A DNA stretch of 64,000 nucleotides from Arenicola marina (lineage: Eukaryota; Annelida; Polychaeta; Arenicolidae). Below, piece by piece: positions 14,258 through 41,488 of the stretch. Every line of letters starts with the position of its first letter. Position 1 is the first letter of the stretch. Under the pieces are notes generated by a model. The model was not told the origin of the DNA and searched no databases. It saw only the letters and a list, made by a program, of their open reading frames with translations. Position numbers and translations under genes: made by a program. The stretch covers positions 68,268,119 through 68,332,118 of the forward strand of contig OZ025248.1 in assembly GCA_964019135.1 (NCBI GenBank), given 5' to 3'.

Positions 14258-15897
14258 TAGCCCTGGTACATGCTAGCCATGCATGAATCCATTGCTATGG
14301 TTGAAGAATCATAGCCATGTAGCATTCTATAGTGAAAAATCAACTTCACATGACAAATTGAATTATTTAAGTATAGCTTTCAAAATTAGATTAAACAATG
14401 TAAAAGTACTTTTCTATATATAATTACTGATGTATGAACTCTTCCAAAGTTGTTAAAGTCTTCAAAAGGAGCTATAATTGCCTACTAGCATAAAAATGGA
14501 CAACAACATGCCACCATTTTTTTGACAGGAAGTTGTTCACTGCACATGTGCAAGGTCATCACATGATATTATATGCCATGCTAATTGGTTCATTGTTCAG
14601 GGACCCAGTCATTGGGTCAGTGAAAACACATGTTTTCATGTGAATTTCTGGTGACAGACTGGACTATTTTTGCCTTTCAACAAAAGGTTACTTATGTGAT
14701 TAATAATTACTTGTCAGGAAGTAAAAAGAAAAGGATTAGGGTTTGTTTCTGTTATAAAACTTTTCCCACAGCAAAGGAGAATCAGAGCTACACTTGGTCA
14801 AAGTCAAACAACCCTGAAATGGGGTTGTTCCAGACCAGAATTTTACTATGGAATGCGACTAGGCTGTGTTTCAGCCCACACAGCCTAGGGTTCTGGGCTA
14901 GGTACATGCGGTCTATAGACAGAACGGCCGTACTACCAAAACGGCCGTATGGTCTCCCCACCCTTTAGTATGGGTGGGGGAGGAGGTGGTGGGGGCTGAG
15001 AGCTTTAAATTGGAATCCTCAGATATCAGAAAGGCATGACTAGTGAATGTATATAAAATATTGCTTCGAAAAATCCTCGGATCATCTTTTTTGGCTTGAG
15101 TTGTTTTCAAAGAATGCCAATTAGTCCATTTTGACACCTAACCCCAGTGTGAGCCTCCCCTGCCTCCCCCCCCCCCCCCCACTGCACACTATGCATTAAT
15201 ATGGCCCGCCAATCAACTCGACTGCTAGCTTCACACACCACCCTTCCTCACACCCCCATAGACCACTACCCCACCCACACTAACTCAAACGGCCATTCTG
15301 GTAGTACGGCCGTTCTGTCCATACACCGTACATGCCTCTCTTACCACGCCCGTAAACGGACCAAGGGTAAGAGCCATGCCGCTGACACGGCCGAAAAAAC
15401 AAGAAATCGCGGACCGGTGGCTCAAGTTGAAGTTCATAACAGAATAAATATGCAGTGCCTACCCGTCAAGTTGCTCCATTAGATTCCTGAAGCTTTCATG
15501 ACTTTCATCGTACAGTCATTTCTTTGGTCGGTAGTGTATTTTCTTGTAATCCGGGAAGTAAACAAACTTAGCTTGAGCACTCGCTGCCAGGGGGTGTTTG
15601 TTGACATCCGGCGAGCGGCGGAGCATTCAAAACGAAGCGAGAGGTGCCAAAAATCGCCCGGATTACAAGAAAATATACTACCGACCAAAGAAATGACTGT
15701 ACAACGAAAGTCATGAAAGCTTCAGGAATCTAATGGAGCAACTTGACGGGTAGGCACTGCATATTTATTCTGTTATGAACTTCAACTTGAGCCACCGGTC
15801 CGCGATTTCTTGTTTTTTCGGCCGTGTCAGCGGCATGGCTCTTACCCTTGCTCAGTTTACGGGTGTGGTAAGAGAGGCATGTACCAGGGCTAGCTCA
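14258..15897. mobile_element. Foldback-type element with nested inverted repeats
   Basis: The outer ends share TAGCCCTGGTACATGC (14,262 region) and its inverse GCATGTACCAGGGCTA (about 15,876-15,893). Inside, a 230-bp pair of arms (15,328-15,559 and 15,653-15,883) is about 95% identical in inverted orientation around a 93-bp loop. A third inverted pair, GGTAGTACGGCCGTTCTGTC at 15,299 and its inverse at 14,917-14,940, ties the left part to the same structure. There is no credible ORF. The whole may be one foldback transposon or a composite; the arm pair itself is certain. Confidence 0.6.
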
Positions 15898-17571: not shown

Positions 17572-17747
17572 TGGTATGGAGCTTGACAATCTGAAGGATG
17601 ATCTTTTAGGAGGCAGATTCAAGGAGCCTTTAGTTTTTTGTAACACAATAAATGGTTGGCCAGCCTCCAAGTGGTCTTTACAGTCACTGGCTGCAGATCT
17701 GGGTAGCAAGAAATTAAGCTTCCGGGTTGGAAAGCTTGGCATACATG
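17572..17747 (+). CDS. HSPBAP1: HSPBAP1 exon A (first recognised coding exon)
   Basis: The acceptor is CTCTGTTTCAG and the donor is ATG|GTTAGT, ending in phase 1. It encodes MELDNLKDD, then FKEPLVFCNTINGWPASKW and KLSFRVGKLGIH, matching the segment before the JmjC core. The Met at 17,576 could be the start if upstream exons are untranslated. Human HSPBAP1 has about 20-30 more residues before the matching point, so a short upstream coding exon is equally possible. Confidence 0.88.
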
Positions 17748-20700
17748 GTTAGTCAATGTTTTTCATTGTTATACACTAGTGTCGGACTTTCGTAAAATTT
17801 ATATATGAAAAGTATTATTTAATATTTAGGAGGCAGCCTCAAGGTAATTTCCACAAACAGAGACTTTTTGTGACCAGGGATGAACACATGAGGTTAGCAG
17901 AATAAACCATAATGATAGCCCTGTGTATGGAGACACTCATTTACACATACCTGTACTTGTAATAGAATCTATATCTATACTTATATTCTTTTTACGCCTT
18001 ATTATGATGCACATGAAAGTATATTTCGTTGACTGATTGAATCGATGTGAAGACAATTATTGCAGAAATATGCAGATAATGACACCAGGTTAGTCAACAG
18101 TGGTATAGCTTTTATATCAATTATTGTCTGGGTGGAATATTTTGCGATCAATGTAAGTTAATTACCGGGTACTACTACGTAGACATGTTATCACATATTA
18201 TTACTGGTAATATAAAAATTGCTTTTTTTTAACTGTGTGAGAATGGTGACATTTGTTGCAGATGTTCAGTGGGAGACGGACTGCCAATATGTAGAAGCCA
18301 CTTTAGGTGAATTTGCTCAGTGGGAAGAAGAAACATGTGGCTGGGAAAATCCCTTGTCTCAGTACAGCAGAGATGCTCACTGGCTGTATGCGGACTACAA
18401 ATACATGAAAGATGTCTTTCACGATCACCCACAGCAACAGAAGGTAGGATAACAGTGGTAATTAAGTGCCGACCGTTCAATGTATTTTAGTGTACGGGAG
18501 AGGCGATGTGGTGCAGTCCAGCTCGCGACCCCCTAACATAGAGTCAGTCACGCCACATAGTCAGCAGAAGGGAGATCCCTCTAGGCCGCTAAGTATGGTT
18601 TGACCCACAGTTACGGAATGAATTAATGCACCATTTAAGCACTAATCTTCGACTTCGTGCAGCAATTACCAGAAATATAGTTCTGGCGAATTTTGTTATG
18701 ATATAGTTAATTATGCATATCTTTACCTTTTTTATGTTGCCTTATATGTTTCATGTACACTGTTGTTTTTCGCAGAGTGTGCAGTGGTCGGCCTTCGGGT
18801 TTGTGGGGCGCGATGGCGCTGACAGCACGATGTGGCTGGGCAGCCCGGGGGCCTACACCGTGGGACATTATGACACGTACGGGTGCAACCTCGTGGCGCA
18901 AATCTACGGCAGGTACGGTGTCGTTATGACTGTAATGGGTTACGGCCGGTACGGTGTCGTTATGACTGTAATGGGTTACGGCCGGTACGGTGTCGTTATG
19001 ATTGTAATGGGTTACGGCAGGTACGGTGTCGTTATGATTGTAATGGGTTACGGCAGGTACGGTGTCGTTATGATTGTAATGGGTTACGGCAGGTACGGTG
19101 TCGTTATGACTGTAATGGGTTACGGCCGGTACGGTGTCGTTATGACTGTAATGGGTTACGGCCGGTACGGTGTCGTTATGATTGTAATGGGTTACGGCAG
19201 GTACGGTGTCGTTATGACTGTAATGGGTTACGGCCGGTTCGGTGTCGTTATGATTGTAATGGGTTACGGCCGGTACGGTATCGTTAAGATTGTAATGGGT
19301 TACGGCCGGTACGGTGTCGTTATGATTGTCATGGATTACGGCCGGTACGGTGTCGTTATGATTGTAATGGGTTACGGCCGGTACGGTGTCGTTATGATTG
19401 TAATGGGTTACGGCCGGTACGGTGTCGTTATGACTAATGGGTTACGGCCGTTACGGTGTCGTTATGATTGTAATGGGTTACGGCCGGTACGGTGTCGTTA
19501 TGATTGTAATGGGTTACGGCAGGTACGGTGTCGTTATGATTGTAGGGGGTTTGGGCAAGGTCTGCGGCTTTTCCGCAATGCTATAATGTAGATAAATGAT
19601 AATCTTAATGAGTGACTAAATGCCATAAGACGTCGTAGGCATAGATTTATTCTTACTTACAATGTCATCGGCCCATAGCTCAAAGGAAACGGTGTGAGTG
19701 ACCGATACGTTCTGCCGAACTCAAACAAGGAATGGATTGCATGATATAGAAAAATTGCCGCGTTGATTTTAATGCGGTTGCTGGTGTAGCTCATTCATAG
19801 TTGAACGAAGTAAGCTACAGAAGATTTACCTGGTACATCAAGTGATGTTCTTAGATTAATCGGTGGAAAAACCAAAGCAAATCTGATTCGTTTTTGAGTA
19901 ATTCTGTACCATTCGTCCCACAACAATTAGGCAATTGTTGCGTCCTACGTATCTTTCTTCTACCAACTTTCTAAATCAAGTTTATTAGTTAGAACAGGGA
20001 AATTCCATAATGCTACTTTATGTATCTCGCTACGAATTCATAACGATAAGCTGGCTCGCCCGCAGCTTGTTCCACGGCAATAAAACAGAACACAATGTAT
20101 GGAATAGGAAAGGGCAAATTTATTGCCGAGTGAGAAAGGCACTACATGGCATACACATTGTCAAATTAATTAAATAAAAGTGGCAGAAGACTTCTCCAGT
20201 AAGTGGCGTGACAATTCGCCAGTAATCACCAATAAACATGAACAGACCTCGTGACCCTATTAAGGGTTCGCGTAACCAATTGCCATGTACATAGGTGAAA
20301 TATATCACCCTGTACGTGGGCGGAACACATCGCCAATCTCACATTGAGTGAACCAACAATACAGGGAATATCTTTCTTTATATACTGACATCATCATTTC
20401 GAGTGAGGCATAGTATGAAAGGCCATAGAAACGTCAACATCAAGGCCGAGTCCGGCGCATTGACACGTTAGACCATTATTATTTCCCAGTATTTCTAGTC
20501 TTGGTCATATATATATATATATATACGTGCTTATGGCGCGGGCCAGGCCGGTGAGCCTCTCTGCTATTTTAGTAGAGGTCACTAAGTGCTCTGTCCACGT
20601 GTCGCCATGGCGCCGCATTTATCCCTGGTTTCCGGTACTTACTTTCAGGAAGCGGTGGGTGCTCTTCCCGCCATCTCAAGGTGACCTTTTGTACCCGACC

Positions 20701-23700
20701 CGCGTCCCCTACGAGGAGTCGTCTGTCTTCAGCAAAGTACACGTCATGACCCCTGACCTTGAGCGCTGGCCCAAGGTGAAGGTCAGCAGCCAATGTGTCC
20801 TCGTAGACTGTCCCAGATCTGTAGCTACGGGTATTAGTGACGACTTCAGTCTTGGGTGACTATCTGGTGTATATATCATCTACGTGTATTAGTGACGGCT
20901 TCAGTCTTGGGTGGCAATCTGGTGTATATATCATCTACGTGTATTAGTGACAGCTTCAGTCGTGGGTGGCTATCTGGTGTATATATCATCTACGTGTATT
21001 AGTGACAGATTCAGTCTTGGGTGGCTATCTGGTGTATATAGGATCTACGTGTATTAGTGAGGACTTCAGTCTTGGGTGGCTATCTGGTGTATATATCATC
21101 TGCGTTTATTAGTGACGGCTTCAGTCTTGGGTGGCTATCTGGTGTATATATCATCTACGTGTATTAGTGACGGCTTCAACCTGGGGTGGCTATCTGGTGT
21201 ATATATCATCTACGTGTATTAGTGACGGCTTCAGTCTTGGGTGGCTATCTGGTGTATATATCATCTACGTGTATTAGTGATTCCTTCAATCTTGGGTGAC
21301 TATCTGGTGTATATATCATCTACGTGTATTAGTAACAGCTTCAGTTACAGTCCTATCGACTCTTGTGTTTGTAACTGTCGATGTCGACTGTTGCAGAGGT
21401 CGACACCGTACGTTGTGACCCTTGACCCGGGAGAAGTCTTGTTCGTCCCCCGCCACTGGTGGCACTTTGTGGAAAACCTGGAGACATCATGCAGCGTGAA
21501 CACCTGGCTGGAGCTGGTCAGTACCCCCCCCCCCCCCACACACCACCATGTCACCCCAACCCCTGGCTGGAGCTGGTCAGTACCCCCCCCCCACACCACC
21601 ATGTCACCCCAACACCTGGCTGGAGCTGGTCAGTACCCCCCCCCCCCACACACCACCATGTCACCCCAACACCTGGCTGGAGCTGGTCAGTACCCCCCCC
21701 CCCCCACACACCACCATGTCACCCCAACACCTGGCTGGAGCTGGTCAGTACCCTCCCCCACACACCACCATGTCACCCCAACACCTGGCTGGAGCTGGTC
21801 AGTACCCCCCCCCCCACACCACCATGTCACCCCAACCTGGCTGGAGCTGGTCAGTACCTCCCCCCCCCACACCACCATGTCACCCCAACACCTGGCTGGA
21901 GCTGGTCAGTCCCCCCCCACACCACCATGTCACCCCAACCCCTGGCTGGAGCTGGTCAGTACCCCCCCCCACCATGTCACCCCAACCCCTGGCTGGAGCT
22001 GGTCAGTACCCCCTCCCCCCCACCATGTCCCCCTAACCCCTGGCTGGAGCTGGTCAGTACCCCCCCCCCCACCACCATGTCACCCCAACACCTGGCTGGA
22101 GCTGGTCAGTACCTCCCCCCCCACCCCACCATGTCGCCCCAACCCCTGGCTGGAGCTGGTCAGTACCCCCCCCCACACCACCATGTCACCCCAACACCTG
22201 GCTGGAGCTGGTCAGTCCCCCCCCCACACCACCATGTCACCCCAACCCCTGACTGGAGCTGGTCAGTACCCCCCCCCCCCCCCACACCACCATGTCACCC
22301 CAACCTGGCTGGAGCTGGTCAGTACCCCCCCCCCCCACACACCACCATGTCACCCCAACACCTGGCTGGAGCTGGTCAGTCCCCCCCCCACACCACCATG
22401 TCACCCCAACCCCTGGCTGGAGCTGGTCAGTACCCCCCCCCCCCACCATGTCACCCCAACACCTGGCTGGAGCTGGTCAGTACCTCCCCCCCCCACCCCA
22501 CCATGTCGCCCCAACCCCTGGCTGGAGCTGGTCAGAACCCCCCCCCCCGCCCCCCCCACACCACCATGTCACCCCAACACCTGGCTGGAGCTGGTCAGTC
22601 CCCCCCCCCACACCACCATGTCACCCCAACCCCTGGCTGGAGCTGGTCAGTACCCCCCCCCCACACCACCATGTCACCCCAACCTGGCTGGAGCTGGTCA
22701 GTACCCCCCCCCCCCACACACCACCATGTCACCCCAACACCTGGCTGGAGCTGGTCAGTACCCCCCCCCCCCCCCCCCACACCACCATGTCACCCCAACC
22801 TGGCTGGAGCTGGTCAGTACCCCCCCTCCCCCCACACCACCATGTCACCCCAACCTGGCTGGAGCTGGTCAGTCCCCCCCCCCACACCACCATGTTACCC
22901 CAACCCCTGGCTGGAGCTGGTCAGTACCCCCCCCCACCCCACCATGTCACCCCAACACCTGGCTGGAGCTGGTCAGTCCCCCCCCCCACACCACCATGTC
23001 ACCCCAACCCCTGGCTGGAGCTGGTCAGTACCCCCCCTCCCCCCACACCACCATGTCACCCCAACCTGGCTGGAGCTGGTCAGTCCCCCCCCCCACACCA
23101 CCATGTTACCCCAACCCCTGGCTGGAGCTGGTCAGTACCCCCCCCCCACCCCACCATGTCACCTCAACACCTGGCTGGAGCTGGTCAGTACCCCCCCCCA
23201 CCCACACACCACCATGTCACCCCAACACCTGGCTGGAGCTGGTCAGTACCCCCCCCCCCCACCCCACCATGTCACCTCAACACCTGGCTGGAGCTGGTCA
23301 GTACCCCCCCCCCCCACACACCACCATGTCACCCCAACACCTGGCTGGAGCTGGTCAGTACCCCCCCCCCCACCCCACCATGTCACCTCAACACCTGGCT
23401 GGAGCTGGTCAGTACCCCCCCCCCCCCCCACACACCACCATGTCACCCCAACACCTGGCTGGAGCTGGTCAGTACCCCCCCCCCCACCCCACCATGTCAC
23501 CCCAACCTCTGGCTGGAGCTGGTCAGTACCCCCACACCACACCACCATGTCACCCCAAACCGTGGCTGGAGCTGGTCAGTACCCCACCGCCCTCCCCACC
23601 CCCACACCACCATGTCGCCCCAACCCCTGGCTGGAGCTGGTCAGTACCCCCCCCTCCCACACCACCATGTCACCCCAACCCCTGGCTGGAGCTGGTCAGT

Positions 23701-26700
23701 ACTTTCCCAACCGCTCCCCACCCCTTCTCCACACCGTCATGCCACCGCCACCCCTGACTAGTGCTGGTCAGTACCCCCCCCCCCCCCCCACACACCACCA
23801 TGTCACCCCCACACCTGGCTAGAGCTGGTCAGTACCCCCCTCCCACACCACCATGCCACCCCCACCTGGCTAGTGCTGGTCAGTACCCCCCCCCCCCCCA
23901 CACCACCATGTCACCCCAACACCTGGCTAGAGCTGGTCAGTACCCCCCTCCCACACCACCATGCCACTCCCACCTGGCTAGTGCTGGTTAGTATTCCCCC
24001 TCCCCACACCACGGTGCAACCGCCACCTGGCTGGATCTAGTCAGTACCCCCCCCCCCCCCTCTCTCCCCATGCCACCCGCACCTGGCTGGGGCTGGTCAG
24101 TCCCCCCCCTCCCCACCTGGCTGGAGCTGGTCAGTATCCCCCCCTCCCCACACCACCATGCCACCCCCACCTGGCTGGAGCTAGTCAGTATCCCCCCTCC
24201 CCACACCACCATTCCTTCCCCTATCCCTGTCTAGAGGACATGGAGACGGTTCACTGTATGTTGTCTGGTGTATCTGCAGGACATAGAGACGGCTAACTGT
24301 ATGTTGTCTGATGTATCTGCAGGACATAGAAACGGTTCCCTGTATGTTGTCTGGTGTATCTGCAGGACATAGAGACGGCTAACTGTATGTTGTCTGGTGT
24401 ATCTGCAGGCCGCCGACGAAGGGGAGCGGGTGCGGGAGGCAGTGGCCCGTCTCCTGGCCTTCTCAGTTATGGCGCCTGCCGAGGGGACCAGATGGCTTAA
24501 CCCCACTGAGGTCAGTACGCCATCTGTAATGCTATCACCGGAAAGGCGCTCAAATGTATCCTAATGCTTCGGCCAGTGAGGCAAGTTAATGGAAAAATAT
24601 AGGACAAAACAGAAAGTGGTTATTTGATTTCTTGCAAATATGTTATTTTTAACAGTTAGAAGAGGTATAAATTTGGCCCCAAGCGATATCAAGTGGGTCG
24701 TGAGAACGGAAAGACCTTGCCCGGAACGTACAATACCTTTGTGGATTTTTTTGTTAATTAAAGTTTAAGTCTAGTCTGTCTACATTATACCTGTATATCG
24801 GCGCGAGTTTAAGAGATGTTTAGCCCTCCCAAGCCGCTAAGGGCCAACCTGTAGATACTTGCACCATTTGATCTTAACACTTTCGACCCGCCACTTTAAG
24901 GTTTAGAATATGTGTTCATATTTACAAAGGTTTAGGTAGTTCACTCCNNNNNNNNNNNNNNNNNNNNNNNNNNNNNNNNNNNNNNNNNNNNNNNNNNNNN
25001 NNNNNNNNNNNNNNNNNNNNNNNNNNNNNNNNNNNNNNNNNNNNNNNNNNNNNNNNNNNNNNNNNNNNNNNNNNNNNNNNNNNNNNNNNNNNNNNNNNNN
25101 NNNNNNNNNNNNNNNNNNNNNNNNNNNNNNNNNNNNNNNNNNNNNNNCTAACCCCTGGCTGGAGCTGGTCAGTACCCCCCCGCCCCCCCCCCCACCATGT
25201 CACCCCAACACCTGGCTGAAGCTGGTCAGTACCTCCCCCCCCCACCCCACCATGTCGCCCCAACCCCTGGCTGGAGCTGGTCAGTACCCCCCCCCACCCC
25301 ACCATATCACCTCAACACCTGGCTGGAGCTGGTCAGTACCACCACACCACACCACCATGTCACCCCAACCTCTGGCTGGAGCTGGTCAGTACCCCCACAC
25401 CACACCACCATGTCACCCCAACCGTGGCTGGAGCTGGTCAGTACCCCACCGCCCTCCCCACCCCCACACCACCATGTCGCCCCAACCCCTGGCTGGAGCT
25501 GGTCAGTACCCCCCCCCCCCCACACAACCATGTCACCCCAACCCTGGCTGGAGCTGGTCAGTACTTTCCCAACCGCTCCCCACCCTTCTCCACACCGTCA
25601 TGCCACCGCCACCCCTGACTAGTGCTGGTCAGTACCCCCCCCCACACACCACCATGTCACCCCAACACCTGGCTAGAGCTGGTCAGTCCCCCCCCCCCCA
25701 CACCACCATGTCACCCCAACACCTGGCTAGAGCTGGTCAGTACCCCCCTCCCACACCACCATGCCACCCCCACCTGGCTAGTGCTGGTCAGTATTCCCCC
25801 TCCCCACACCACGGTGCAACCGCCACCTGGCTGGATCTAGTCAGTACCCCCCCCCTCTCTCCCCATGCCACCCGCACCTGGCTGGGGCTGGTCAGTCCCC
25901 CCCTCCCCACCTGGCTGGAGCTGGTCAGTATCCCCCCCTCCCCACACCACCATGCCACCCCCACCTGGCTGGAGCTAGTCAGTATCCCCCCTCCCCACAC
26001 CACCATTCCTTCCCCTATCCCTGTCTAGAGGACATGGAGACGGTTCACTGTATGTTGTCTGGTGTATCTACAGGACATAGAGACGGTTCACTGTATGTTG
26101 TCTGGTGTATCTGCAGGACATAGAGACGGCTAACTGTATGTTGTCTGGTGTATCTGCAGGACATAGAGACGGTTCACTGTATGTTGTCTGGTGTATCTGC
26201 AGGACATAGAGACGGCTAACTGTATGTTGTCTGGTGTATCTGCAGGCCGCCGACGAAGGGGAGCGGGTGCGGGAGGCAGTGGCCCGTCTCCTGGCCTTCT
26301 CAGTTATGGCGCCCGCCGAGGGGACCAGATGGCTTAACCCCACTGAGGTCAGTACGCCATCTGTAATGCTATCACCGGAAAGGCGCTCAAATTTATCCTA
26401 ATGCTTCGGCCAGTGAGGCAAGTTAATGGAAAAATATAGGACAAAACAGAAAGTGGTTATTTGATTTCTTGCAAATATGTTATTTTTAACAGTTAGAAGA
26501 GGTATAAATTTGGCCCCAAGCGATATCAAGTGGGTCGTGAGAACGGAAAGACCTTGCCCGGAACGTACAATACCTTTGTGGATTTTTTTGTTAATTAAAG
26601 TTTAAGTCTAGTCTGTCTACATTATACCTGTATATCGGCGCGAGTTTAAGAGATGTTGAGCCCTCCCAAGCCACTAAGGGCCAACCTGTAGATACTTGCA

Positions 26701-27684
26701 CCATTTGATCTTAACACTTTCAACCCGCCATTTTAAGGTTTAGAATATGTGTTCATATTTACAAAGGTTTAGGTAGTTCACTCCTCTCCAGATATATATG
26801 GGCACATTTTGTAGTTTCAGAAAAGCTGAAGAGATAACATTTCACGCCGGTCTTCATTCTCGGGCAAATGAACGACGTTGTAACACGTTATGTCCTGCAT
26901 CCGTTGTAACGAGTTTTAGCGTTATGTTTTACCCATGTCTGACCGCCGTGGTTTCCGGCCGTAGGTGCCCAGCTCGGCGGAGACGAGCCTCACGTATCTG
27001 TCGAGAGCCTTGGCGGCCTTAAAGACTGGTACCGCGCCGCCTATAGCGAGACAGAAAGAAGAGCCTCCACCGGAAGTGACCTCTGCCCCGCAGTCACGTG
27101 ACAGTCATAAGGGGGATCACCTCCCTGTCGGAACCGAGGTCAAGGTTCAAGAAACAAATTGTACCAGGAGTGCCTTCGGCGAATCCCCGGTTGGATTCGA
27201 AGAAAGCTTCGTCGCGCATAGAGCGCCACCTACGTTGCCGGCGACGGAGAGTGAAACTGACATGGTGGCTGGTTCCCCGGTCAAGCGAGGGCGGCACGAG
27301 TCATCCGCCCGGGTACATTTTATCGACCTCCGCGGTGGTGGAACAGCTTACCGCCTTCAGCCCATGGAGTTTAACTTTTTTCTCTCCAATATGTCCTCGA
27401 GTCAGAGTTCGTGTCCTGTTACTCGCCGAAGTCACGTGACTTCTCCCGATCCCACAACGATAAATCAGCATTCGGAAACTGCGACCTCTGCGCAGACAGC
27501 TGGTGTGGATGGTAAGGTCGAGGGAGGACGAGAACAGGTGTCTGATGGTGAGTCCCGGTCACCAGATCCAGATGGCTCGCCCCCGATGGGGGTGTCGAGG
27601 GAGAGTCTGCTGGACTGCGTCCTGCATCCCGACGTCATTCGTCTCATCGCTGACAAAGTCATCGACAAATATCGACTGGAATAA
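17572..27684 (+). CDS. HSPBAP1: HSPB1-associated protein 1 (JmjC-domain protein), seven recognised exons
   Basis: Spliced coding parts: A 17,572-17,747; B 18,262-18,443; C 18,776-18,912; D 20,649-20,775; E 21,397-21,516; F 24,409-24,510 (repeated at 26,246-26,347); G 26,965-27,684. Phases fit at every junction. From the ATG at 17,576 the product is 519 residues, close to the 488 of human HSPBAP1. Exon order and sequence follow the family: VFCNTINGWPA, CQYVEATL, GFVGRDGADST, KRWVLFPP, YPTRVPYEESSVFSK, LFVPRHWWHFVEN, WLNPTE. The JmjC fold of 2-oxoglutarate oxygenases is present with H149 and D151 (GHYDTYGCN) and H229 (WWH), so the iron triad is complete. Residues about 280-490 are low complexity. 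The tail SRESLLDCVLHPDVIRLIAD matches the conserved C-terminal motif of the family. The substrate is unsettled in the family; the human protein binds HSPB1. An AG acceptor directly precedes exon A, so an upstream exon probably exists and the true N-terminus is uncertain. Confidence 0.93.
18262..18443 (+). CDS. HSPBAP1: HSPBAP1 exon B
   Basis: The acceptor is ATTTGTTGCAG and the donor AAG|GTAGGA (phase 0). With the last base of exon A it reads DVQWETDCQYVEATLGEF, then HWLYADYKYMKDVF. This matches the human TCNYVEATLEEF and WAYADYKYF segments. Confidence 0.92.
18776..18912 (+). CDS. HSPBAP1: HSPBAP1 exon C, carries the H-x-D iron site
   Basis: The acceptor is TTTTTCGCAG. The coding sequence SVQWSAFGFVGRDGADST then GAYTVGHYDTYGCNLVAQIY includes the HYD iron ligands of the JmjC domain. 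The natural donor by homology is GGCAG|GTACGG at 18,912/18,913, phase 2. The donor and last exon bases are the start of a 36-bp array that repeats the same junction about 17 more times. Confidence 0.92.
18905..19545 (+). repeat. 36-bp minisatellite overlapping the exon C splice donor
   Basis: About 17 units of GGTACGGTGTCGTTATGA, then TTGTAATGGGTTACGGC(A/C). The first unit starts at the real exon-intron border (TACGGCAG|GTACGG). Every later unit repeats a TACGG(C)(A/C)G|GTACGG junction, so each is a copy or near copy of the authentic 5' splice site with the last codons of the exon. Units with CAG|GTACGG keep the exact donor; CCG|GTACGG units are weaker. The frame also stays open for about 290 codons. 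Confidence 0.95.
19546..20520 (+). other. HSPBAP1 intron between C and D, unique part
   Basis: Ordinary intronic sequence. A (AT)n run lies at about 20,508-20,525. No other exon or element was recognised. Confidence 0.5.
20649..20775 (+). CDS. HSPBAP1: HSPBAP1 exon D
   Basis: The acceptor is TACTTTCAG and the donor AAG|GTGAAG. It completes R164 and reads KRWVLFPPSQGDLLYPTRVP, then YEESSVFSKVHVMTPDLERW and PK, a close match to the human KRWHLFPP and YPTRIPYEESSVFSK segments of the JmjC core. Confidence 0.94.
20830..21345 (+). repeat. 55-bp minisatellite in the intron after exon D
   Basis: About nine to ten units with GTGTATTAGTGACGGCTTCA, then GTCTTGGGTGGCTATCTGGT and GTATATATCATCTAC. The array begins about 55 bp after the exon D donor. 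Unlike the arrays at exons C and E, it does not contain the splice site. Confidence 0.93.
21397..21516 (+). CDS. HSPBAP1: HSPBAP1 exon E, carries the second iron-binding His
   Basis: The acceptor is CGACTGTTGCAG. It reads RSTPYVVTLDPGEVLFVPRH, then WWHFVENLETSCSVNTWLEL. The WWH His is the distal iron ligand of the JmjC triad. The donor by homology is GAGCTG|GTCAGT (21,516/21,517), phase 0, joining in frame to AADEGERVREAV of exon F. The same donor with the upstream TGGCTGGAGCTG is repeated about 50 times downstream. Confidence 0.93.
21497..24215 (+). repeat. About 2.7-kb minisatellite overlapping the exon E splice donor
   Basis: About 50 units of 45-60 bp. Each carries AACACCTGGCTGGAGCTG, the last six codons of exon E (NTWLEL), then GTCAGTA, a poly-C tract of 5-16, and CACACCACCATGTCACCCC. 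The first copy is the real exon end. So each unit repeats the real 5' splice junction exactly or with small changes. Poly-C length is the main variable. Units from about 23,750 onward are more diverged (TGGCTAGAG, CTAGTGCTG, GGATCTAG). Long proline-rich open frames here are artefacts of the repeat. Confidence 0.96.
24237..24408 (+). repeat. 43-bp tandem repeat overlapping the exon F splice acceptor (copy 1)
   Basis: Four units beginning GACATAGAGACGG, through AACTGTATGTTGTCTGG, and ending TGTATCTGCAG. The last TATCTGCAG is the acceptor of exon F, and each earlier unit also ends in CTGCAG|G with the same preceding sequence. This array therefore multiplies a 3' splice site. It has four units here and five in the second copy after the gap. 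Confidence 0.95.
24409..24510 (+). CDS. HSPBAP1: HSPBAP1 exon F, copy 1
   Basis: It encodes 34 residues, AADEGERVREAVARLLAFSV then MAPAEGTRWLNPTE, matching the human RVEEAITRML...AWLNPTE segment. The acceptor is ATCTGCAG and the donor ACTGAG|GTCAGT, both phase 0. An almost identical second copy lies at 26,246-26,347. Including both would keep the frame but would give a product with a repeated segment not seen in the family, so one copy is probably an assembly duplicate. Confidence 0.88.
24511..24947 (+). other. HSPBAP1 intron after exon F, copy 1, ending at the gap
   Basis: This unique-looking intron sequence is repeated at 26,348-26,784 with only scattered differences. It stops at TAGTTCACTCC directly against the N run. 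The second copy continues past that point into new sequence. Confidence 0.85.
24948..25147. other. Assembly gap of 200 N
   Basis: Exactly 200 N, a round number typical of a scaffold gap of unknown size. It separates two near-identical copies of the exon E/F interval. Confidence 0.99.
25148..26030 (+). repeat. Second copy of the exon-E-donor minisatellite
   Basis: About 16 units of the same TGGCTGGAGCTGGTCAGTAC type begin immediately after the gap. The order of rare variants (GTCACCCCAACCGTGG, CCACCGCCCTCCCCAC, ACTTTCCCAACCGCTCCCCA, then GGTGCAACCGCCACC) is the same as at 23,300-24,200, with fewer units. It is the other end of a duplicated or haplotypic contig. Confidence 0.93.
26031..26245 (+). 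repeat. 43-bp tandem repeat overlapping the exon F splice acceptor (copy 2)
   Basis: Five 43-bp units, against four in copy 1, ending in TATCTGCAG at the exon F border. The first unit ends ATCTACAG and the rest ATCTGCAG. Confidence 0.95.
26246..26347 (+). CDS. HSPBAP1: HSPBAP1 exon F, copy 2
   Basis: It encodes the same 34 residues as 24,409-24,510 with only a silent change seen (GCGCCCGCC for GCGCCTGCC). It runs on through matching intron sequence into exon G without a gap, so if only one copy exists this is the one joined to the 3' end of the gene. Confidence 0.88.
26965..27684 (+). CDS. HSPBAP1: HSPBAP1 exon G, terminal coding exon
   Basis: The acceptor is TTTCCGGCCGTAG. It reads VPSSAETSLTYLSRALAALK, then about 190 low-complexity polar residues. 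Near the middle is a hydrophobic patch, GTAYRLQPMEFNFFLSNMSS. It ends SRESLLDCVLHPDVIRLIAD, KVIDKYRLE and stop. The last block matches the human DDLLDCLVNPQVTRIVAQLL tail, confirming this as the true 3' end. Confidence 0.92.
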   Translation: MPSSAETSLTYLSRALAALKTGTAPPIARQKEEPPPEVTSAPQSRDSHKGDHLPVGTEVKVQETNCTRSAFGESPVGFEESFVAHRAPPTLPATESETDMVAGSPVKRGRHESSARVHFIDLRGGGTAYRLQPMEFNFFLSNMSSSQSSCPVTRRSHVTSPDPTTINQHSETATSAQTAGVDGKVEGGREQVSDGESRSPDPDGSPPMGVSRESLLDCVLHPDVIRLIADKVIDKYRLE

Positions 27685-28839: not shown

Positions 28840-29600
28840 CTGGCCCAATACAGACTGGCGGTACATACAGGTAGCAGCGAGTGCTGGCGTATACCACCCC
28901 AGCAGGCGTGAGGCTGCCTTTCGAAGCGGGTTAGGCCTATATAATAACGAGTGAGTAGGTAATATTTGGACAGCGAATGCCACTGCTTGCGTGGTGGCTA
29001 AGAAGATTAAAAAGCATGATATGTAAAACGTTGCGGGTCTTTATTTGTTGAATCGCTATTGGGAAGGTATGTGTGTGTTGGGGGGGGGGGGGTGGACGGG
29101 GGGGGGGTGTAGAGCGACAGGTTATTGGACGGGGACCGCTTTCAAACAGTCTGCTTATCCATTAAAAGAGATTGAAAGGGCTCTATTGAAGCGGAACATG
29201 GGGCTGTGAATGGTTAAGGAGTGTCCGTGGCTGAGGGGTCGGTATTATAGGACTCTCGGCGATAAACTTACCGATTGTGTCACCGGAGAGTATTGCGCGA
29301 CTCTTGCTTTTTCACAGTCCCTTGGGTACATGGCAGTATGCTTGCTTCACCGCCTTCAATCGCCTGAAATGTGCGTTGGGTTTGGTGATTTATCTCTGAC
29401 TTGTGACAATAAGTATTAATATCAAATCCTGACCAGTCGGAGAAGAGGATATTGACTTAGGAAATATACACCCACCGACACCTCTCTATCTTCCTCCACG
29501 TTAGTTTGGTTGCTAGGCGTGGTTGACAACATGACTGTTGGTATTACTGCTTTCCGCATTCCTTGACAACCATCATTGAACCTGCGCGAGCGCCCTCTGT
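28840..29600. other. Intergenic sequence, possible promoter region of the next ORF
   Basis: A poly-G tract with TGT lies at about 29,078-29,108. No TATA box or known element recognised. The sequence becomes CpG-rich from about 29,560. Confidence 0.4.
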
Positions 29601-29604
29601 CGGG

Positions 29605-31113
29605 ATGGGTAGCGCCGCCAGTAGTGACGTCACGCGTCGCGACCGTCATGTGACGTTTGCTGACGACACTTCCGGTCGTGACGTCACGGAGGGCGAGCGG
29701 CCAGGGCGTCTCCACTCTTATCCGGAAGACACGGAGGACTCGTATACTGATCGCCGAGACTCTCGTCAGGATACGAGAGTCTCGCTCGGCTACCGTATCC
29801 AGATGGAAGCCAAGAGGCACCACCCGGAATACTTCATGAGAAAGGTCGGTGAAGAGAGTGCAGACCGAGGTCAAGGTCGCGTCACTGATGGCAGGGTGGT
29901 GAGGGAGGTGCGTGACAGTGCGCTACGACCCGGGGAGGGGGTGGAAGGGGTTGGGGGGCGGGCGAGACGCCCCAAGGTGCCCCGTCCCGCCATGTCGGCG
30001 GAACTCTGGGAGGGGGAGGAGGGGGAGGGGTGGGGTACGCCGGGTGGCTCGCGTGACGCTCGGACGCTGAGTGAGCTGAACAGCAGCGCTAATACCCTAA
30101 GTACCCGGATTGAAAGCACGAGTGACGTCAGCTCTACCATTGTCCGTGCGCCGGGATACGCCGCTTACAAAAAACGGGCTCTTCCATCTGGCGGACGCAC
30201 CACCCTGCCCAATACCCGGCGTCGGCAGGCAGCGCCGGCACGTGGCACCCCGGTGACCTCTGGGGGTCTGAGACCGAGGGCGCGGACTCCAAGGCGACAG
30301 GGGGTGCCGGGGGCACGCACGCCAGGGCGACGGTGGGTGTTGGGGGTGGGGGCGAACTATGACAAGCTGGTGGAGGACCGTCCCTCTAATACCCGGCAGC
30401 AGGCGGCAGTCATTAGTTACCGTGGATCTCAGTGTAGTCCGGATCCGAACGATGCCATGGTGCCCGGATTCCCCGGTGGATCCGGGGACTCTGCGCGGGC
30501 TCGGCATATCCTGCCCATTCCGGATCAGCCTGGTGGCGCCCAGGAACCTCAGCTCCCGTCCTACACTGAGTGGATGCCGGTCCCGGAAGTGAACGATCCC
30601 AGAGCCGAGTTGACCCCGAAGAGCCGACAATCCGGAAGAGATACAGCTCCGGACATATCTGGAAGGGACGTCCGGGGAACTCTGGAGACGACTGGCGACC
30701 CGGATGGTGGTAGCTCTGGTGACGAGGGGAGCCATGGGCCGGGGACCGGGGATAATGAGATGGACAACAGCCGCTGGGTCGACACTCCCGAGCCGAGCAT
30801 GGATGCAGTCCCAGTGCTGACGCCTAGTGGTGAAGACTTATCTGCCCAGCGTGAGGGATCCGGGAGTGTCGGCCCAGACAGCGGCGGGGCTGGCAGACAT
30901 ATGCCGACCCACGCCGAGAGTCCTCCCCCTAGGGCGTCGGGAAACCCCATCCAAGCGCGGAGCAGCCCCCTGACTGCGCATGCGCCTTCATTGTCCGGCC
31001 AAATCGACGGGACTTCGGACGCCGGGGAAAGCCCTGCATTGCTGATGATGACGTCACGGCGTCTTCGGGCCGTGGACCTCCCCAGTGGCACCATTGTGGA
31101 CAACCCGGTGTGA
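29605..31113 (+). CDS. Hypothetical 502-residue disordered protein with myristoylation and PP1-docking motifs
   Basis: I do not recognise the family. The frame is open from 29,527. The first ATG (29,605) has G at -3 and +4, a good initiation context. The N-terminus MGSAAS fits the N-myristoylation pattern MGxxxS, suggesting membrane attachment. Residues 14-21, DRHVTFAD, fit the RVxF docking motif for protein phosphatase 1. A charged patch, GYRIQMEAKRHHPEYFMRKV (about residues 72-91), looks helical. The rest is rich in R, G, P, S, D and T with an internal imperfect repeat (RARTPRRQGVPG / ARTPGRRWVLG) and is probably disordered. The frame ends TGA near a run of TGACGTCA-like sites, with ATTAAA at about 31,254. 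The region is GC- and CpG-rich compared with its flanks, and no array underlies the frame. It could be a single-exon gene or the large last exon of a gene starting upstream. Confidence 0.6.
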   Translation: MGSAASSDVTRRDRHVTFADDTSGRDVTEGERPGRLHSYPEDTEDSYTDRRDSRQDTRVSLGYRIQMEAKRHHPEYFMRKVGEESADRGQGRVTDGRVVREVRDSALRPGEGVEGVGGRARRPKVPRPAMSAELWEGEEGEGWGTPGGSRDARTLSELNSSANTLSTRIESTSDVSSTIVRAPGYAAYKKRALPSGGRTTLPNTRRRQAAPARGTPVTSGGLRPRARTPRRQGVPGARTPGRRWVLGVGANYDKLVEDRPSNTRQQAAVISYRGSQCSPDPNDAMVPGFPGGSGDSARARHILPIPDQPGGAQEPQLPSYTEWMPVPEVNDPRAELTPKSRQSGRDTAPDISGRDVRGTLETTGDPDGGSSGDEGSHGPGTGDNEMDNSRWVDTPEPSMDAVPVLTPSGEDLSAQREGSGSVGPDSGGAGRHMPTHAESPPPRASGNPIQARSSPLTAHAPSLSGQIDGTSDAGESPALLMMTSRRLRAVDLPSGTIVDNPV

Positions 31114-35389: not shown

Positions 35390-36095
35390 GTCTCAGCTAG
35401 CCTCGGCAGACTCATTCTGTTCCGCCGTTCCAGTCTGGGTTTTGTACGGGGACTTTTAAACAGAATAGACGCGTTTGGAAATTCTGAATTATCTGGAGGC
35501 ACACTGGGACTGAGTATCATATTTTTGTATAGATTAATCTTTTAGCTATCAAATTCTTCCAAACAATCAAAAAGATTGTATCTGTATCTGTATCTGTGTC
35601 TGCAAGATGATTTACGAAGCACCAACGTCCGAACCGGGCGCCATACTTGTTTTTGGCGCGTGCTGGTGCCTGTGAATGCAGCCTGGTTCCCAAACTTTGA
35701 ATTATCTGTGAGAGAGGGCGCTGCTATTGTCCTTAACTGCAAAGTGCCCGTCTGACAGCGCCATCTAGGGAAGAGTCGTAGGCTGGGAACCAAGTTGCAT
35801 TCACCAGGTACCAGCATGTGCCAAAACAAATATGGCGCCCTGTTCGGATGTTGGTGGTCCGTAAAACGTCTTGCAAACACACATACAGGTGATCAATCTT
35901 TTTGATTGTTCGGAAGAATTTGATAGGTAAAAGATTGATCTATACAAAAATGTGATATTTAACCCCAGTGTGCCTCCAGATGATTCAGAATTTCCAAATG
36001 CGCCTATTGTGTCTAAGAGTCCCCGTGCGAAACCCAGGCTGGAACCGAGACCCAACTGCGGAACAGAGTGGGTCTCCCGAGGCTGGGTCTTAGCC
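35390..36095. mobile_element. Foldback element Y, copy 1
   Basis: Almost the whole 700 bp is one inverted repeat. The left arm (about 35,390-35,725) carries GCCTCGGCAGACTCATTCTG, TTTGGAAATTCTGAATTATC and GCGCCATACTTGTTTTTGGC. The right arm (about 35,757-36,095) carries the same blocks inverted. A central region of about 30 bp holds AGAGAGGGCGCTG. No coding capacity. A second copy follows at 36.68 kb as part of a larger duplication. Confidence 0.85.
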
Positions 36096-36214
36096 TACCA
36101 CGTGCCTATATTATTATGTTTTGCTCGTTTTTCTATTGAATACTCTGTTTACGTCTGCTTATTCCACCGACCATACCGTGTGGGTAGAGAAGGCGATCAG
36201 TATGAAGAGGTGGC

Positions 36215-36672
36215 GGGTCGGTGTGGGTAGCCGGGTGTGGGTGGCGCCGAGGGTCGGTGCGGAGAGCGGGGTGTGGGTGGGGGTGTGGGTCAGTGCGGGA
36301 GGCGGGGTGTGGGTGGCGCCGCGGGTCAGTGCGAAGAGCCAGGTGTGGGTGGCGCCGCGGGTCAGTGCGGGGAGCCGGGTGTGGGTGGGGCCGCGGGTCA
36401 GTGCGGGGAGCGGGGTGTGGGTGGCGCCGCGGGCCGGTGCGGGGAGCGGTGTGTGGGTGGCGCCGCGGGTCAGTGCGGGGAGCCAGGTGTGGGTGGCGCC
36501 GCGGGTCAGTGCGGGGAGCCGGGTGTGGGTGGCGCCGCGGGTCGGTACGGGGAGCCGGGTGTGGGTGGCGCCGCGGGTCAGTGCGGGAAGCGGGGTGTGG
36601 GTGGCGCCGCGGGTCGGTGCGGGAAGCGGTGTGTGGGTGGCGCCGCGGGTCAGTGCGGGAAGCGGTGTGTGG
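36215..36672 (+). repeat. GC-rich 36-bp minisatellite, block 1
   Basis: About 12 units of GGTGTGGGTGGCGCCGCGGG then TCAGTGCGGGGAGCG(G). It follows the GTGTGGGTAGAGAAGGCGAT segment that also precedes block 2, so both blocks began from the same sequence. Confidence 0.95.
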
Positions 36673-36675
36673 GTT

Positions 36676-37335
36676 TTGCAGTCTGGGTTTTGCACGGGGA
36701 CTTTTAAACAGAATAGGCGCATTTGGAAATTCTGAATTATCTGGAGGCACACTGGGACTAAATATCATATTTTTGTATAGATTAATCTTTTAGCTATCAA
36801 ATTCTTCCAAACAATCAAAAAGATTGATCATCTGTATCTGTGTCTGCAAGATGATTTACGAAGCACCAACGTCCGAACGGGGCGCCATACTTGTTTTTGG
36901 CGCGTGCTGGTGCCTGTGAATGCAGCCTGGTTCCCAAACTTTGAATTCTCTGTGAGAGAGGGCGCTGCTATTGTCCTTAACTGCAAAGTGCCCGTCTGAC
37001 AGCGCCATCTAGGGAAGAGTCGTAGGCTGGGAACCAAGTTGCATTCACCCGGTACCAGCATGTGCCAAAACAAATATGGCGCCCTGTTCGGATGTTGGTG
37101 GTCCGTAAAACGTCTTGCAAACACACATACAGGTGATCAATCTTTTTGATTGTTCGGAAGAATTTGATAGGTAAAAGATTGATCTATACAAAAATGTGAT
37201 ATTTAACCCCAGTGTGCCTCCAGATGATTCAGAATTTCCAAATGCGCCTATTGTGTCTAAGAGTCCCCGTGCGAAACCCAGGCTGGAACCGAGACCCAAC
37301 TGCGGAACAGAGTGGGTCTCCCGAGGCTAGGTCAG
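36676..37335. mobile_element. Foldback element Y, copy 2
   Basis: The sequence is nearly the same as at 35,440-36,095, starting abruptly at CAGTCTGGGTTTTGCACGG next to the end of the 36-bp array. The left end is therefore lost. The following approx. 120 bp up to the next array also match copy 1, so this copy came from a tandem duplication of [foldback + flank + array], not from a separate insertion. Confidence 0.85.
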
Positions 37336-37449
37336 CCTACCACGTGCCTAGATTATGATGTTTTGCTCGTTTTTCTATTAAATACTCTGTTTACGTCTGC
37401 TTATTCCACCGACCATACCGTGTGGGTAGAGAAGGCGATCAGTATGAAG

Positions 37450-40400
37450 AGGCGACGGGTCGGTGTGGGGAGCCGGGTGTGGGTGGCGCCGCGGGTCAGT
37501 GCGGGGAGCGGGGTGTGGGTGGCGCCGAGGGTCGGTGCGGAGAGCGGGGTGTGGGTGGGGGTGTGGGTCAGTGCGGGGAGCGGGGTGTGGGTGGCGCCGC
37601 GGGTCGGTGCGGGGAGCCGGGTGTGGGTGGGGCCGCGGGTCAGTGCGGGGAGCGGGGTGTGGGTGGCGCCGCGGGTCAGTGCGGGGAGCCGGGTGTGGGT
37701 GGCGCCGCGGGTCGGTACGGGGAGCCGGGTGTGGGTGGCGTCGCGGGTCAGTGCGGGGAGCGGTGTGTGGGTGGCGCTGCGGGTCAGTGCGGGGAGCGGT
37801 GTGTGTGTGGCGCCGCGGGTCAGTGCGGGGAGCCGGTTGTGGGTGGCGCCGCGGGTCAGTGCGGGGAGCGGGGTGTGGGTGGCGCCGCGGGTCGGTGCGG
37901 GGAGCCGGGTGTGGGTGGCGCCGCGGGTCAGTGCGGGGAGCCGGGTGTGGGTGGCGCCGCGTGTCGGTGCGGGGAGCGGGGTGTGGGTGGCGCCGCGTGT
38001 CAGTGCGGGGAGCGGGGTGTGGGTGGGGGTGTGGGTGGGGCCGCGGGTCAGTGCGGGGAGCGGGGTGTGGGTGGGGGTGTGGGTGGTGCCGCGGGTCAGT
38101 GCGGGGAGCGGGGTGTGGGTGGGGGTGTGGGTAGTGCCGCGGGTCAGTGCGGGGCGCGGGGTGTGGGTGGGGGTCTGGGTGGCGCCGCGGGTCAGTGCGT
38201 GTAACGGGGTGTGGGTGGGGGTGTGGGTGGGGCCGCGGGTCAGTGCGGAGAGCGGGGTGTGGGTGGGGGTGTGAGTGGGGCCGCGGGTCAGTGCGGGGAG
38301 CGGGGTGTGGGTGGGAGTGTGGGTGGCGCCGCGGGTCAGTGCGGAGAGCGGGGTCTGGGTGGCGCCGCGGGCCAGTGCGGAGAGCGGGGTGTGGGTGGGG
38401 CCGCAGGTCAGTGCGGGGAGCGGGGGGTGGGTGGGGGTGTGGGCGGCGCCGCGGGTCAGTGCGTGTAGCGGGGTGTGGGTGGGGCTGTGGGTGGGGCCGC
38501 GGGTCAGTGCGGAGAGCGTGGTGGGGGTGTGGGTGGGGCCGCGGGTCAGTGCGGGGAGCGGGATGTGGGTGGGGGTGTGGGTGGCGCCGCGGGTCAGTGC
38601 GGAGAGCGGGGTGTGGTTGGGGGTGTGGCTGGGGCCGCGGGTCTGTGCGGGGAGCCGGGTGTGGTTGGCGCCGCGGGTCGGTGCGGGGAGCGGGGTGTGG
38701 GTGGTGCCGCGGGTCGGTGCGGGGAGCGGGGTGTGGGTGGCGCCGCGGGTCAGTGCGAGAAGCGGGGTGTGGGTGGCGCCGCGGGTCAGTGCGGGGAGCG
38801 GGATGTGGGTGGCGCCGCGGATCAGTGCGAGGAGCGGGGTGTGGGTGGCGCCGCGGGTCAGTGCGGGGAGCGGGGTGTGGGTGGCGCCGCGGGTCGGTGC
38901 GGGGAGCCGGGTGTGGGTGGCGCCGCGGGTCAGTGCGGGGAGCGGGGTGTGGGTGGCGCCGCGGGTCAGTGCGGGGAGCCGGGTGTGGGTGGCGCCGCGT
39001 GTCGGTGCGCGGAGCGGGGGGTGGGTGGCGCCGCGGGGCAGTGCCGGGAGCGGGGATTTGGTGGGGGTGGGGCCGCGGGTCAGTGCGGGGAGCGGGGTGT
39101 GGGTGGCGCCGCGAGTCGGTGCGGGGAGCCGGGTGTGGGTGGCGCCGCGTGTCGGTGCGGGGAGCGGGGTGTGGGTGGGGGTGTGGGTGGGGCCGCGGGT
39201 CAGTGCGGAGAGCGGGGTGTGGGTGGGGGTGTGGGTGGGGCCGCGGGTCAGTGCGGGGAGCGGGGTGTGGGTGGGAGTGTGGGTGGCGCCGCGGGTCAGT
39301 GCGGAGAGCAGGGTGTGGGTGGCGCCGCGGGTCAGTGCGGAGAGCGGGGTGTGGGTGGGGCCGCAGGTCAGTGCGGGGAGCGGGGTGTGGGTGGGGGTGT
39401 GGGCGGCGCCGCGGGTCAGTGCGTGTAGCGGGGTGTGGGTGGGGGGGTGGGTGGGGCCGCGGGTCAGTGCGGAGAGCGGGGTGGGGGTGTGGGTGGGGCC
39501 GCGGGTCAGTGCGGAGAGCGGGGTGGGGGTGTGGGTGGGGCCGCGGGTCAGTGCGGGGAGCGGGGTGTGGGTGGGGGTGTGGGTGGCGCCGCGGGTCAGT
39601 GCGGAGAGCGGGGTGTGGGTGGGGGTGTGGCTGGGGGTGTGGGTGGCGTCGCGGGTCAGTGCGGAGAGCGGGGTGTGGGTGGGGGTGTGGCTGGAGCCGC
39701 GGGTCAGTGCGGGGAGCCGGGTGTGGGTGGCGCCGCGGGTCGGTGCGGGGAGCGGGGTGTGGGTGGTGCCGGGGGTCGGTGCGGGGAGCGGGGTGTGGGT
39801 GGCGCCGCGGGTCAGTGCGGGGAGCGGGGTGTGGGTGGCGCCGCGGGTCAGTGCGGGGACCCGGGTGTGGGTGGCGCCGCGTGTCGGTGCGGGGAGCGGG
39901 GTGTGGGTGGCGCCGCGGGTCAGTGCCGAGAGCGGGGATTTGGTGGGGGTGGGGCCGTGGGTCAGTGCGGGGAGCGGGGTGTGGGTGGCGCCGCGGGTCG
40001 GTGCGGGGAGCCGGGTGTGGGTGGCGCCGCGTGTCGGTGCGGGGAGCGGGGTGTGGGTGGCGCCGCGGGTCAGTGCGGGGAGCGGGTTGTGGGTGGCGCC
40101 GCGGGTCGGTGCGGGGAGCGGGGTGTGGGTGGTGCCGGGGGTCGGTGCGGGGAGCGGGGTGTGGGTGGCGCCGCGGGTCAGTGCGAGAAGCGGGGTGTGG
40201 GTGGCGCCGCGGGTCAGTGCGGGGAGCGGGATGTGGGTGGCGCCGCGGGTCAGTGCGAGGAGCGGGGTGTGGGTGGCGCCGCGGGTCAGTGCGGGGAGCC
40301 GGGTGTGGGTCGCGCCGCGGGTCAGTGCGGGGAGCGGGGTGTGGGTGGCGCCGCGGGTCGGTGCGGGGAGCCGGGTGTGGGTCGCGCCGCGGGTCAGTGC

Positions 40401-41150
40401 GGGGAGCGGGGTGTGGGTGGCGCCGCGGGTCAGTGCGGGGAGCCGGGTGTGGGTGGCGCCGCGGGTCAGTGCGGGGAGCGAGTTGTGGGTGGCGCCGCGT
40501 GTCGGTGCGGGGAGCGTGGTGTGGGTGGCGCCGCGGTCAGTGCGGAGAGCGGGGTGTGGGTGGCGCCGCGGGTCAGTGCGGAGAGCGGGGTGTGGGTGGC
40601 GCCGCGGGTCAGTGCGGGGAGCGGGTTGTTGGTGGCGCCGCGGGTCAGTGCGGGGAGCGGGGTGTGGGTGGGGGTGTGGGTCAGTGCGGGGAGCCGGGTG
40701 TGGGTGGCGCCGCGGGTCAGTGCGGAGAGCGGGGTGTGGGTGGCGCCGCGGGTCAGTGCGGGGAGCGGGTTGTGGGTGGCGCCGCGGGTCAGTGCGGGGA
40801 GCGGGGTGTGGGTGGGGGTGTGGGTCAGTGCGGGGAGCGGGGTGTGGGTGGCGCCGCGGGTCAGTGCGGAGAGCAGGGTGTGGGTGGCGCCGCGGGTCAG
40901 TGCGGAGAGCGGGGTGTGGGTGGCGCCGCGGGTCAGTGCGGAGAGCGGGTTGTGGGTGGCGCCGCGGGTCAGTGCGGGGAGCGGGGTGTGGGTGGGGGTG
41001 TGGGTCAGTGCGGAGAGCGGGGTGTGGGTGGCGCCGCGGGTCAGTGCGGAGAGCGGGGTGTGGGTGGCGCCGCGGGTCAGTGCGGGGAGCGGGGTGTGGG
41101 TGGCGCGGCGGGTCAGTCCTGGCAGCGGGGTGTGGGTGGGGGTGTGGGTG
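37450..41150 (+). repeat. GC-rich 36-bp minisatellite, block 2, about 3.7 kb
   Basis: About 100 units of the GGTGTGGGTGGCGCCGCGGG / TCAGTGCGGGGAGCG type. Some units carry an insert of GTGGGGGTGTGGGTGG. A rare variant with GGGATTTGGTGGGGGTGGGG occurs near 39,055 and 39,930, and other variant groups recur about 870-900 bp apart, indicating higher-order duplication. All three forward frames are open for 600-1000 codons because 36 is a multiple of three and the unit has no stop; I do not call a protein. The + strand is very G-rich. Confidence 0.95.
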
Positions 41151-41488
41151 GGGCCACGTGTTCTGCTGGTCACGTGTTGTCGATGTCGTGACACGTGTCG
41201 CCCTACATCCGAGTACCAGCCGAGCAGGTCAGTTGGGGTCATCGGGAAAAAGGGAAGCGCCACGCAGCAGAGATGACAGTCAGTAACAGTGTACACCGCA
41301 GGAGTATCGTGTGACATGCTAAAAAAGACTATCATCGTGGAAGGTTTGATTTCCACTTCTGTATTGGACCAGGTAACGATTGAGTCCTGTGCCTGTTAGT
41401 GTTCTGTGTATCTGTGTCTTTTACTTCGTGATGACATGGCACGCTCAAGCGCATGCGCACTGGGCTTGGCGAAGTGCTGAATTGGAGC
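41151..41488. other. Unique spacer between two GC-rich arrays
   Basis: About 330 bp of non-repetitive sequence including ACACGTGTCGCCCTACATCC. No gene recognised. The arrays on either side share vocabulary, so this may be an insertion within one array or the original flank. Confidence 0.4.

Follow-up and report, generated by a model that had tools for sequence, protein, structure and literature searches.

Fifty tandem copies of a splice donor at one exon end of a JmjC-domain gene in Arenicola marina

Mirage minisatellites and related systems

Minisatellites whose unit spans an exon-intron border and carries a splice signal are called 'mirage' minisatellites, and those of the amphioxus Adh3 gene were reportedly described by Canestro et al. 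in 2002. In amphioxus, such arrays are known from Adh, TnC, the globins and PGBD5 (PMC3087553, PMC3902484). Their copy number is reported to differ between haplotypes (PMC3087553). Here, a stretch of 64,000 nucleotides from the annelid Arenicola marina was analysed (GenBank assembly GCA_964019135.1, contig OZ025248.1, positions 68,268,119 to 68,332,118 of the forward strand; hereafter the window, in whose own numbering all positions are given). In a gene of the JmjC/Cupin_8 class within it, the end of exon E and its 5' splice site stand in 50 tandem copies, which run into intron E. The reading preferred here, to which we give a probability of about 0.75, is that the outermost donor and the outermost acceptor of this intron are used through proximity across the exon, the other copies being mostly bystanders.

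By their anatomy, the splice-border arrays of this gene are mirage minisatellites. The unit spans the border at the donor of exon E (50 units, each with 18 exon bases) and at that of exon C (18 units, with 8 exon bases by Tandem Repeats Finder, TRF), and all 50 units of the former and 17 of the 18 of the latter have the donor GT. Like the amphioxus mirages, these are tandem repeats over donor or acceptor borders with splice signals in many of the units, and the range of unit lengths in Adh3, 10-72 bp (PMC3087553), takes in the 36, 43 and 54 bp of the present gene. The number of units is different: 50 here, against six and three in the haplotypes of BflGb6, one duplicate in BflGb9 (PMC3087553) and three units of 108 bp in PGBD5 (PMC3902484), a comparison that covers these three genes and leaves out Adh3 and TnC. 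Unlike those amphioxus mirages, the present arrays cover both ends of one intron, and three splice borders are arrayed in a single gene. The kind is already known, and what distinguishes the locus is its size, the two-ended intron and the three arrayed borders. In the literature on amphioxus minisatellites, on mirages and on HSPBAP1 with Branchiostoma, with most subscription journals outside the scope, no paper on the locus was found.

Two other systems deserve comparison. The minisatellite of human IFI6 (6-16/G1P3), which Turri et al. are said to have described in 1995, has a unit of 12 bp. The likeness lies in a minisatellite that supplies several splice donors, and no homology is claimed. 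In IFI6, two downstream repeat units are reported to serve as donors (PMC4526556), whereas the array of intron E is known from genomic sequence alone. The model of Rogers, on the other hand, explains intron gain by the tandem duplication of splice signals (PMC3087553). Exon ends that are repeated within a gene and bring usable splice signals with them recall this model, but the repeats here extend an existing intron, and no new exon or intron was seen (intron positions of relatives were not compared).

The gene and the two ends of intron E

The seven-exon gene (17576-27684, + strand) was built by hand from splice signals and reading frame in the 64-kb window. Its spliced product contains a Cupin_8/JmjC domain (Pfam PF13621, E 2.3e-35; PF02373, E 3.5e-07), and the top solved chains resembling it are FIH and JMJD5. 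The domain class is computed, and the gene is presumably HSPBAP1-like. Exon E (21397..21516, +) is 120 nt long, has phase 0 at both ends and finishes with the residues NTWLEL at the end of the domain. It is followed by intron E (21517..24408, +; 2,892 nt) and by the first copy of exon F (24409..24510, +; 102 nt, phase 0), whose donor reads GAG/GTCAGT. The last exon, G, with the stop codon, is located at 26965..27684 (+). A C at donor position +3 is rare among human donors; in this gene it is found in three of the six, at 20782 (GTCAGC, exon D), 21517 (GTCAGT, exon E) and 24511 (GTCAGT, exon F).

The donor array (21499..24215, +) consists of 50 units over the 5' splice site of exon E, with a spacing of 34-72 nt (mean 54.4, from 21499 to about 24215). 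TRF describes it as 52 bp in 40.5 copies at 21499-23702 (score 3079), with more rows to 24212. Each unit is composed of an exon end, a donor, in most cases a C-run of variable length, and a tail. The GT of the donor is intact in all 50 units; GTCAGT occurs in 48, the other two reading GTCAGA and GTTAGT, and the nine bases from -3 to +6, CTGGTCAGT, are identical in 46, unit 1 among them. The full 18-nt exon end, AACACCTGGCTGGAGCTG, is exact in 19 units, and its last 12 nt, TGGCTGGAGCTG, in 41. When translated, the exon ends give NTWLEL in 20 units, NPWLEL in 13, PTWLEL in 8 and other residues in 9, two of which hold a stop.

A preliminary description of the locus had proposed about 50 tandem copies of the exon E donor, forming a border minisatellite of the mirage type in which many donors compete, and two further splice-border arrays in the gene. 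All of this is supported, the many equal donors having the same acceptors to compete for and the further arrays lying at the donor of exon C (18 units) and at the acceptor of exon F (four units). It had also assigned both NTWLEL and the GTCAGT donor to every unit; the hexapeptide proves to be that of a minority, and the donor motif stands save for the two variant units. Nor does the array begin precisely at the exon border, as had been stated, since its start lies 18 nt inside exon E.

Since units 2-37 are almost uniform while units 38-50 are diverged, turnover keeps the exon-proximal block alike, the coding end included, and the far end decays. In units 2-37, the changes per site amount to 0.0023 in the exon part, 0.0046 in the donor and 0.0116 in the tail; in units 38-50, they rise to 0.083, 0.013 and 0.122, respectively (the tail figure being taken over units 1 and 38-49). 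In the diverged units, where changes are shared by descent, the donor shows fewer changes than its flanks, which is suggestive of conservation, but in the uniform ones it shows more than the exon part. No higher-order block beyond chance was found in units 1-37, and 32 unit types were counted among the 49 units compared. A derivation of the unit tail from more of exon E was not upheld (7 of 17 matches, P 0.08). Rejected, too, was a motif common to 16 array units taken from the window, whose top 4-, 5- and 6-mers were equalled in 27%, 40% and 50% of shuffles. The exact 24-base unit pattern gave no match in viral or in prokaryote contigs, and Rfam at gathering scores gave none in the window.

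At the other end of the intron, the acceptor array of exon F (24235..24409, +) has four 43-bp units, each ending in CTGCAG, and the last of these is the real acceptor. It ends on the exon F border and includes about one exon base. CTAAC is a good match to a branch point. It is present in units 2 and 4 and absent from units 1 and 3; in a second copy of the array, which lies beyond an assembly gap, it is present in units 3 and 5 of five, and the unit of the real acceptor carries it in both copies. Between the donor and acceptor arrays, only 19 of the 2,892 bases of intron E are left (24216-24234), counting the donor array as far as 24215 and not to 24212, where the last TRF row stops.

The donor array itself contains 57 CAG or TAG trinucleotides. 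In 50 of them, another AG lies less than 15 nt upstream, and the remaining seven fall in diverged units (23762-24101); the six real acceptors of the gene are preceded by 20-69 AG-free bases. Acceptor context is, therefore, poor inside most of the donor array, and only the AG-free stretch and the T count set the array AGs apart from the real acceptors. Five candidate acceptors exist at the end of the intron, namely the four CAGs and a TAG ending at 24234. Because the array trinucleotides, save those seven, have another AG so close upstream, the choice would be one of 50 donors by 5 acceptors and not a stepwise removal of the intron.

With the last acceptor, the full frame is kept by 16 of the 50 donors, the first included; 25 donors lead to an early stop in exon F or G and 9 to a stop inside the array. 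With the upstream acceptors, none of the 200 donor combinations keeps the full frame. The 25 early stops escape the 50-nt rule of nonsense-mediated decay because F-G is the last junction. Removal of the frameshifted products by this decay was, therefore, rejected as a general rule, the 9 donors with a stop inside the array being its would-be targets. Whichever donor is chosen, the Cupin_8 domain stays whole, as exon E runs to residue 248, past the end of the Cupin_8 match at residue 245.

A similar array stands at exon C (18776..18912, +), whose donor is copied at its end by a 36-bp minisatellite (18905..19551, +; 18 units spaced 36 nt apart, once 34). Its donors read GTACGG in 16 units, GTTCGG in one and TTACGG in one. 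Donors 1-15 are in frame and open, and 15 of the 18 keep the full open reading frame (ORF). A fourth array, of 55 bp in about 9.5 copies (20825..21345, +), is located in intron D, off the splice borders, with 43 nt between it and the D donor and 51 nt between it and the E acceptor. Splice borders are thus reached by three of the four arrays of the gene, whereas 6.4% of the array-free intron is situated no farther than 20 nt from one (binomial P 0.001, which is post hoc, the gene having been picked for its arrays).

Choice of the donor

It is proposed that copies of the border between exon E and its intron grew in tandem into the intron and that a smaller array copied the other end of the intron. 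Exon E would be defined across its own length, by its single acceptor and the donor nearest to that, the one of unit 1. This donor would then pair with the exon F acceptor nearest to the donor of exon F, while the 49 other donors and the upstream acceptors would leave with the intron, perhaps with a leakage of a few percent to units 2-4. With donors 1 to 4, exon E would measure 120, 179, 232 and 289 nt, so the earlier expectation that most alternative donors would add a long insert is confirmed by donor 4 already. Since exon E ends where the JmjC domain ends, leakage would spare the domain and alter what follows, mostly the tail, and this may be the reason why the array is tolerated.

As 46 of the 50 donors share identical nine bases, position or upstream context must pick unit 1. 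Minigenes spliced by exon definition and carrying a pair of identical strong 5' splice sites are reported to have used solely the upstream site in all constructs, and where the flanking introns are long, preference goes to the sites that lie nearest each other across the exon (PMC9225289). How the cell picks one donor had been called open; it is less so now that proximity across the exon predicts the first donor and the minigenes agree. The mirages of the globins and Adh3 (PMC3087553), and likewise those of Adh and TnC (PMC3902484), are reported not to interfere with regular splicing. At the exon C array, the alignment to FIH is gapless at the C-D junction, which agrees with a predicted use of the first donor there.

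Several points weigh against this reading. When the twin donors of the minigenes were weakened, the upstream preference was kept in the smaller constructs, and the larger ones gave mostly exon skipping (PMC9225289). Donors 49 and 50, only 279 and 225 nt away from the acceptor of exon F, would be favoured by proximity across the intron. Some leakage is likely, since two downstream repeat units are used in human IFI6. The donor of exon E is not an especially strong one: by an approximate human matrix, it scores 6.39 bits, where the six donors of the gene range from 6.23 to 8.28. Of the 685 GT sites in the gene, 83 equal or exceed this score, and the array accounts for at least 47 of these. In predicted RNA accessibility, donor 1 does not stand out (rank 6 of 50, with values from 0 to 0.13), and folding accessibility was found to be of no use as a donor selector. 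The pyrimidine fraction was dropped as a proof of missing acceptors, the AG-free stretch being used instead, because the array CAG and TAG sites (mean 0.54, maximum 0.72) overlap with the real acceptors (0.50-0.78). Furthermore, the solved-structure alignments of relatives stop at the E-F junction or within three residues of it, so that its use is beyond the reach of homology; its continuity with human HSPBAP1 is presumed. The use of sites in intron E is a prediction made from the genome.

Ladder splicing, as in human IFI6 (PMC4526556), in which several donors would be used to give proline-rich inserts or altered tails tuned by the length of the array, is improbable. Beyond that precedent, it can draw on the three + frames over 21517-23700, which contain 0, 2 and 0 stops; in 500 random sequences matched to this stretch in first-order composition, there were at least 13, and no frame was open. 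The full ORF is also kept by those 16 donors of exon E and 15 of exon C, and the inserts at exon E would come after the JmjC domain. The openness can, however, arise by chance in a repeated unit, as no stop occurs in any of the three frames in 2411 of 5000 random 53-nt units made to the same composition; selection for it is not supported on this ground, though whole random sequences are not open. Moreover, no donor before unit 7 (+333 nt) offers an in-frame alternative to the first, the inserts at exon C would land within a conserved part of the domain, and the other mirages are reported to splice regularly (PMC3087553, PMC3902484). Barely probable is a combinatorial, length-variable device, in which use is shared among many of the 50 near-equal donors and 5 acceptors. 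If it were true, there would be a spectrum of HSPBAP1 tails per individual or cell, with the JmjC domain intact, which would shift as the array mutates.

Other explanations arise from the assembly. A gap of 200 N (24948..25147) is followed by a second copy (25148..26784, +) with 16 donor units, five acceptor units, an exon F' (from 26246) and part of intron F. The near-duplicate flanking the gap extends over 718 bases with 98.5% identity, 11 differences and no indels. Units 38-50 of the first array (A) match units 5-16 of the second (B) in order, save for one extra unit, A43; only two of the twelve pairs fall below a likeness of 0.92, A40-B7 (0.76) and A44-B10 (0.91). The 539 bases of exon F and intron F hold 6 differences between the copies, with a single, synonymous one (by eye) in exon F. 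The copies thus differ by one unit within 38-50, by several C-run lengths and by four against five acceptor units. Because the end of the first copy has its match in the interior of the second, and the second itself opens within the array, what follows the gap is most likely an unmerged allele or a contig overlap and not a second exon F, and exon F is likely to be falsely duplicated in the assembly. If they are alleles, the two copies display the length instability to be expected of a minisatellite. A true tandem duplication, which would give the gene two exons F and a set of donor and acceptor arrays before each, is unlikely, though it would be compatible with the use of the first donor. The copies lie head to tail, exon F with its 102 nt and phase 0 could be included twice, and the divergence of 11 in 718 is below the 6-7% polymorphism (single-nucleotide plus indel) reported for the amphioxus genome (PMC2632668). 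Such divergence is possible for alleles too, and a first copy that stops at the gap and is matched inside the second is the picture of two unmerged overlapping contigs. It is very improbable that the assembly has inflated or mis-joined the units and that the array is in truth far shorter. The gap and the near-duplicate of the 3' part do adjoin the array, and the draft-genome version of one globin mirage 'appears to be aberrantly assembled' (PMC3087553). Units 1-37, however, are free of a long repeated block (the longest is two units with C-runs collapsed, a length reached in 83% of shuffles), and the order of units 38-50 is common to the second copy save for that one unit.

The remaining window and the meaning of the array

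Elsewhere in the window, two G-rich arrays of one 36-bp unit are present (36213-36674 and 37456-41139), with the donor-like GGGTCAGTGC in many units, and the stretch just upstream of each (about 35900-36240 and 37130-37450) appears repeated by eye; neither array could be tied to an exon. They precede a 44-bp array (41484-43489) with a similar unit. An open frame for a reverse transcriptase on the - strand (47937-49175; PF00078, E 4.8e-34) perhaps belongs to a non-LTR (long terminal repeat) retroelement. An inverted repeat at 15328-15884 has 228-bp arms, 97% alike and about 100 bp apart, and an open frame of 528 codons on the + strand (29527-31113) has no Pfam match.

Work on competition between splice sites often relies on minigenes built with two sites. 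Intron E offers a natural test, in which 46 donors, identical over nine bases, are set at a graded series of distances from one acceptor, the sequence between them being poor in acceptor context, and which bears on whether proximity across the exon alone decides. The locus further illustrates that an intron can do with very little unique sequence, about 19 bases in the present case, and that the turnover of a minisatellite can draw in the coding end of an exon.

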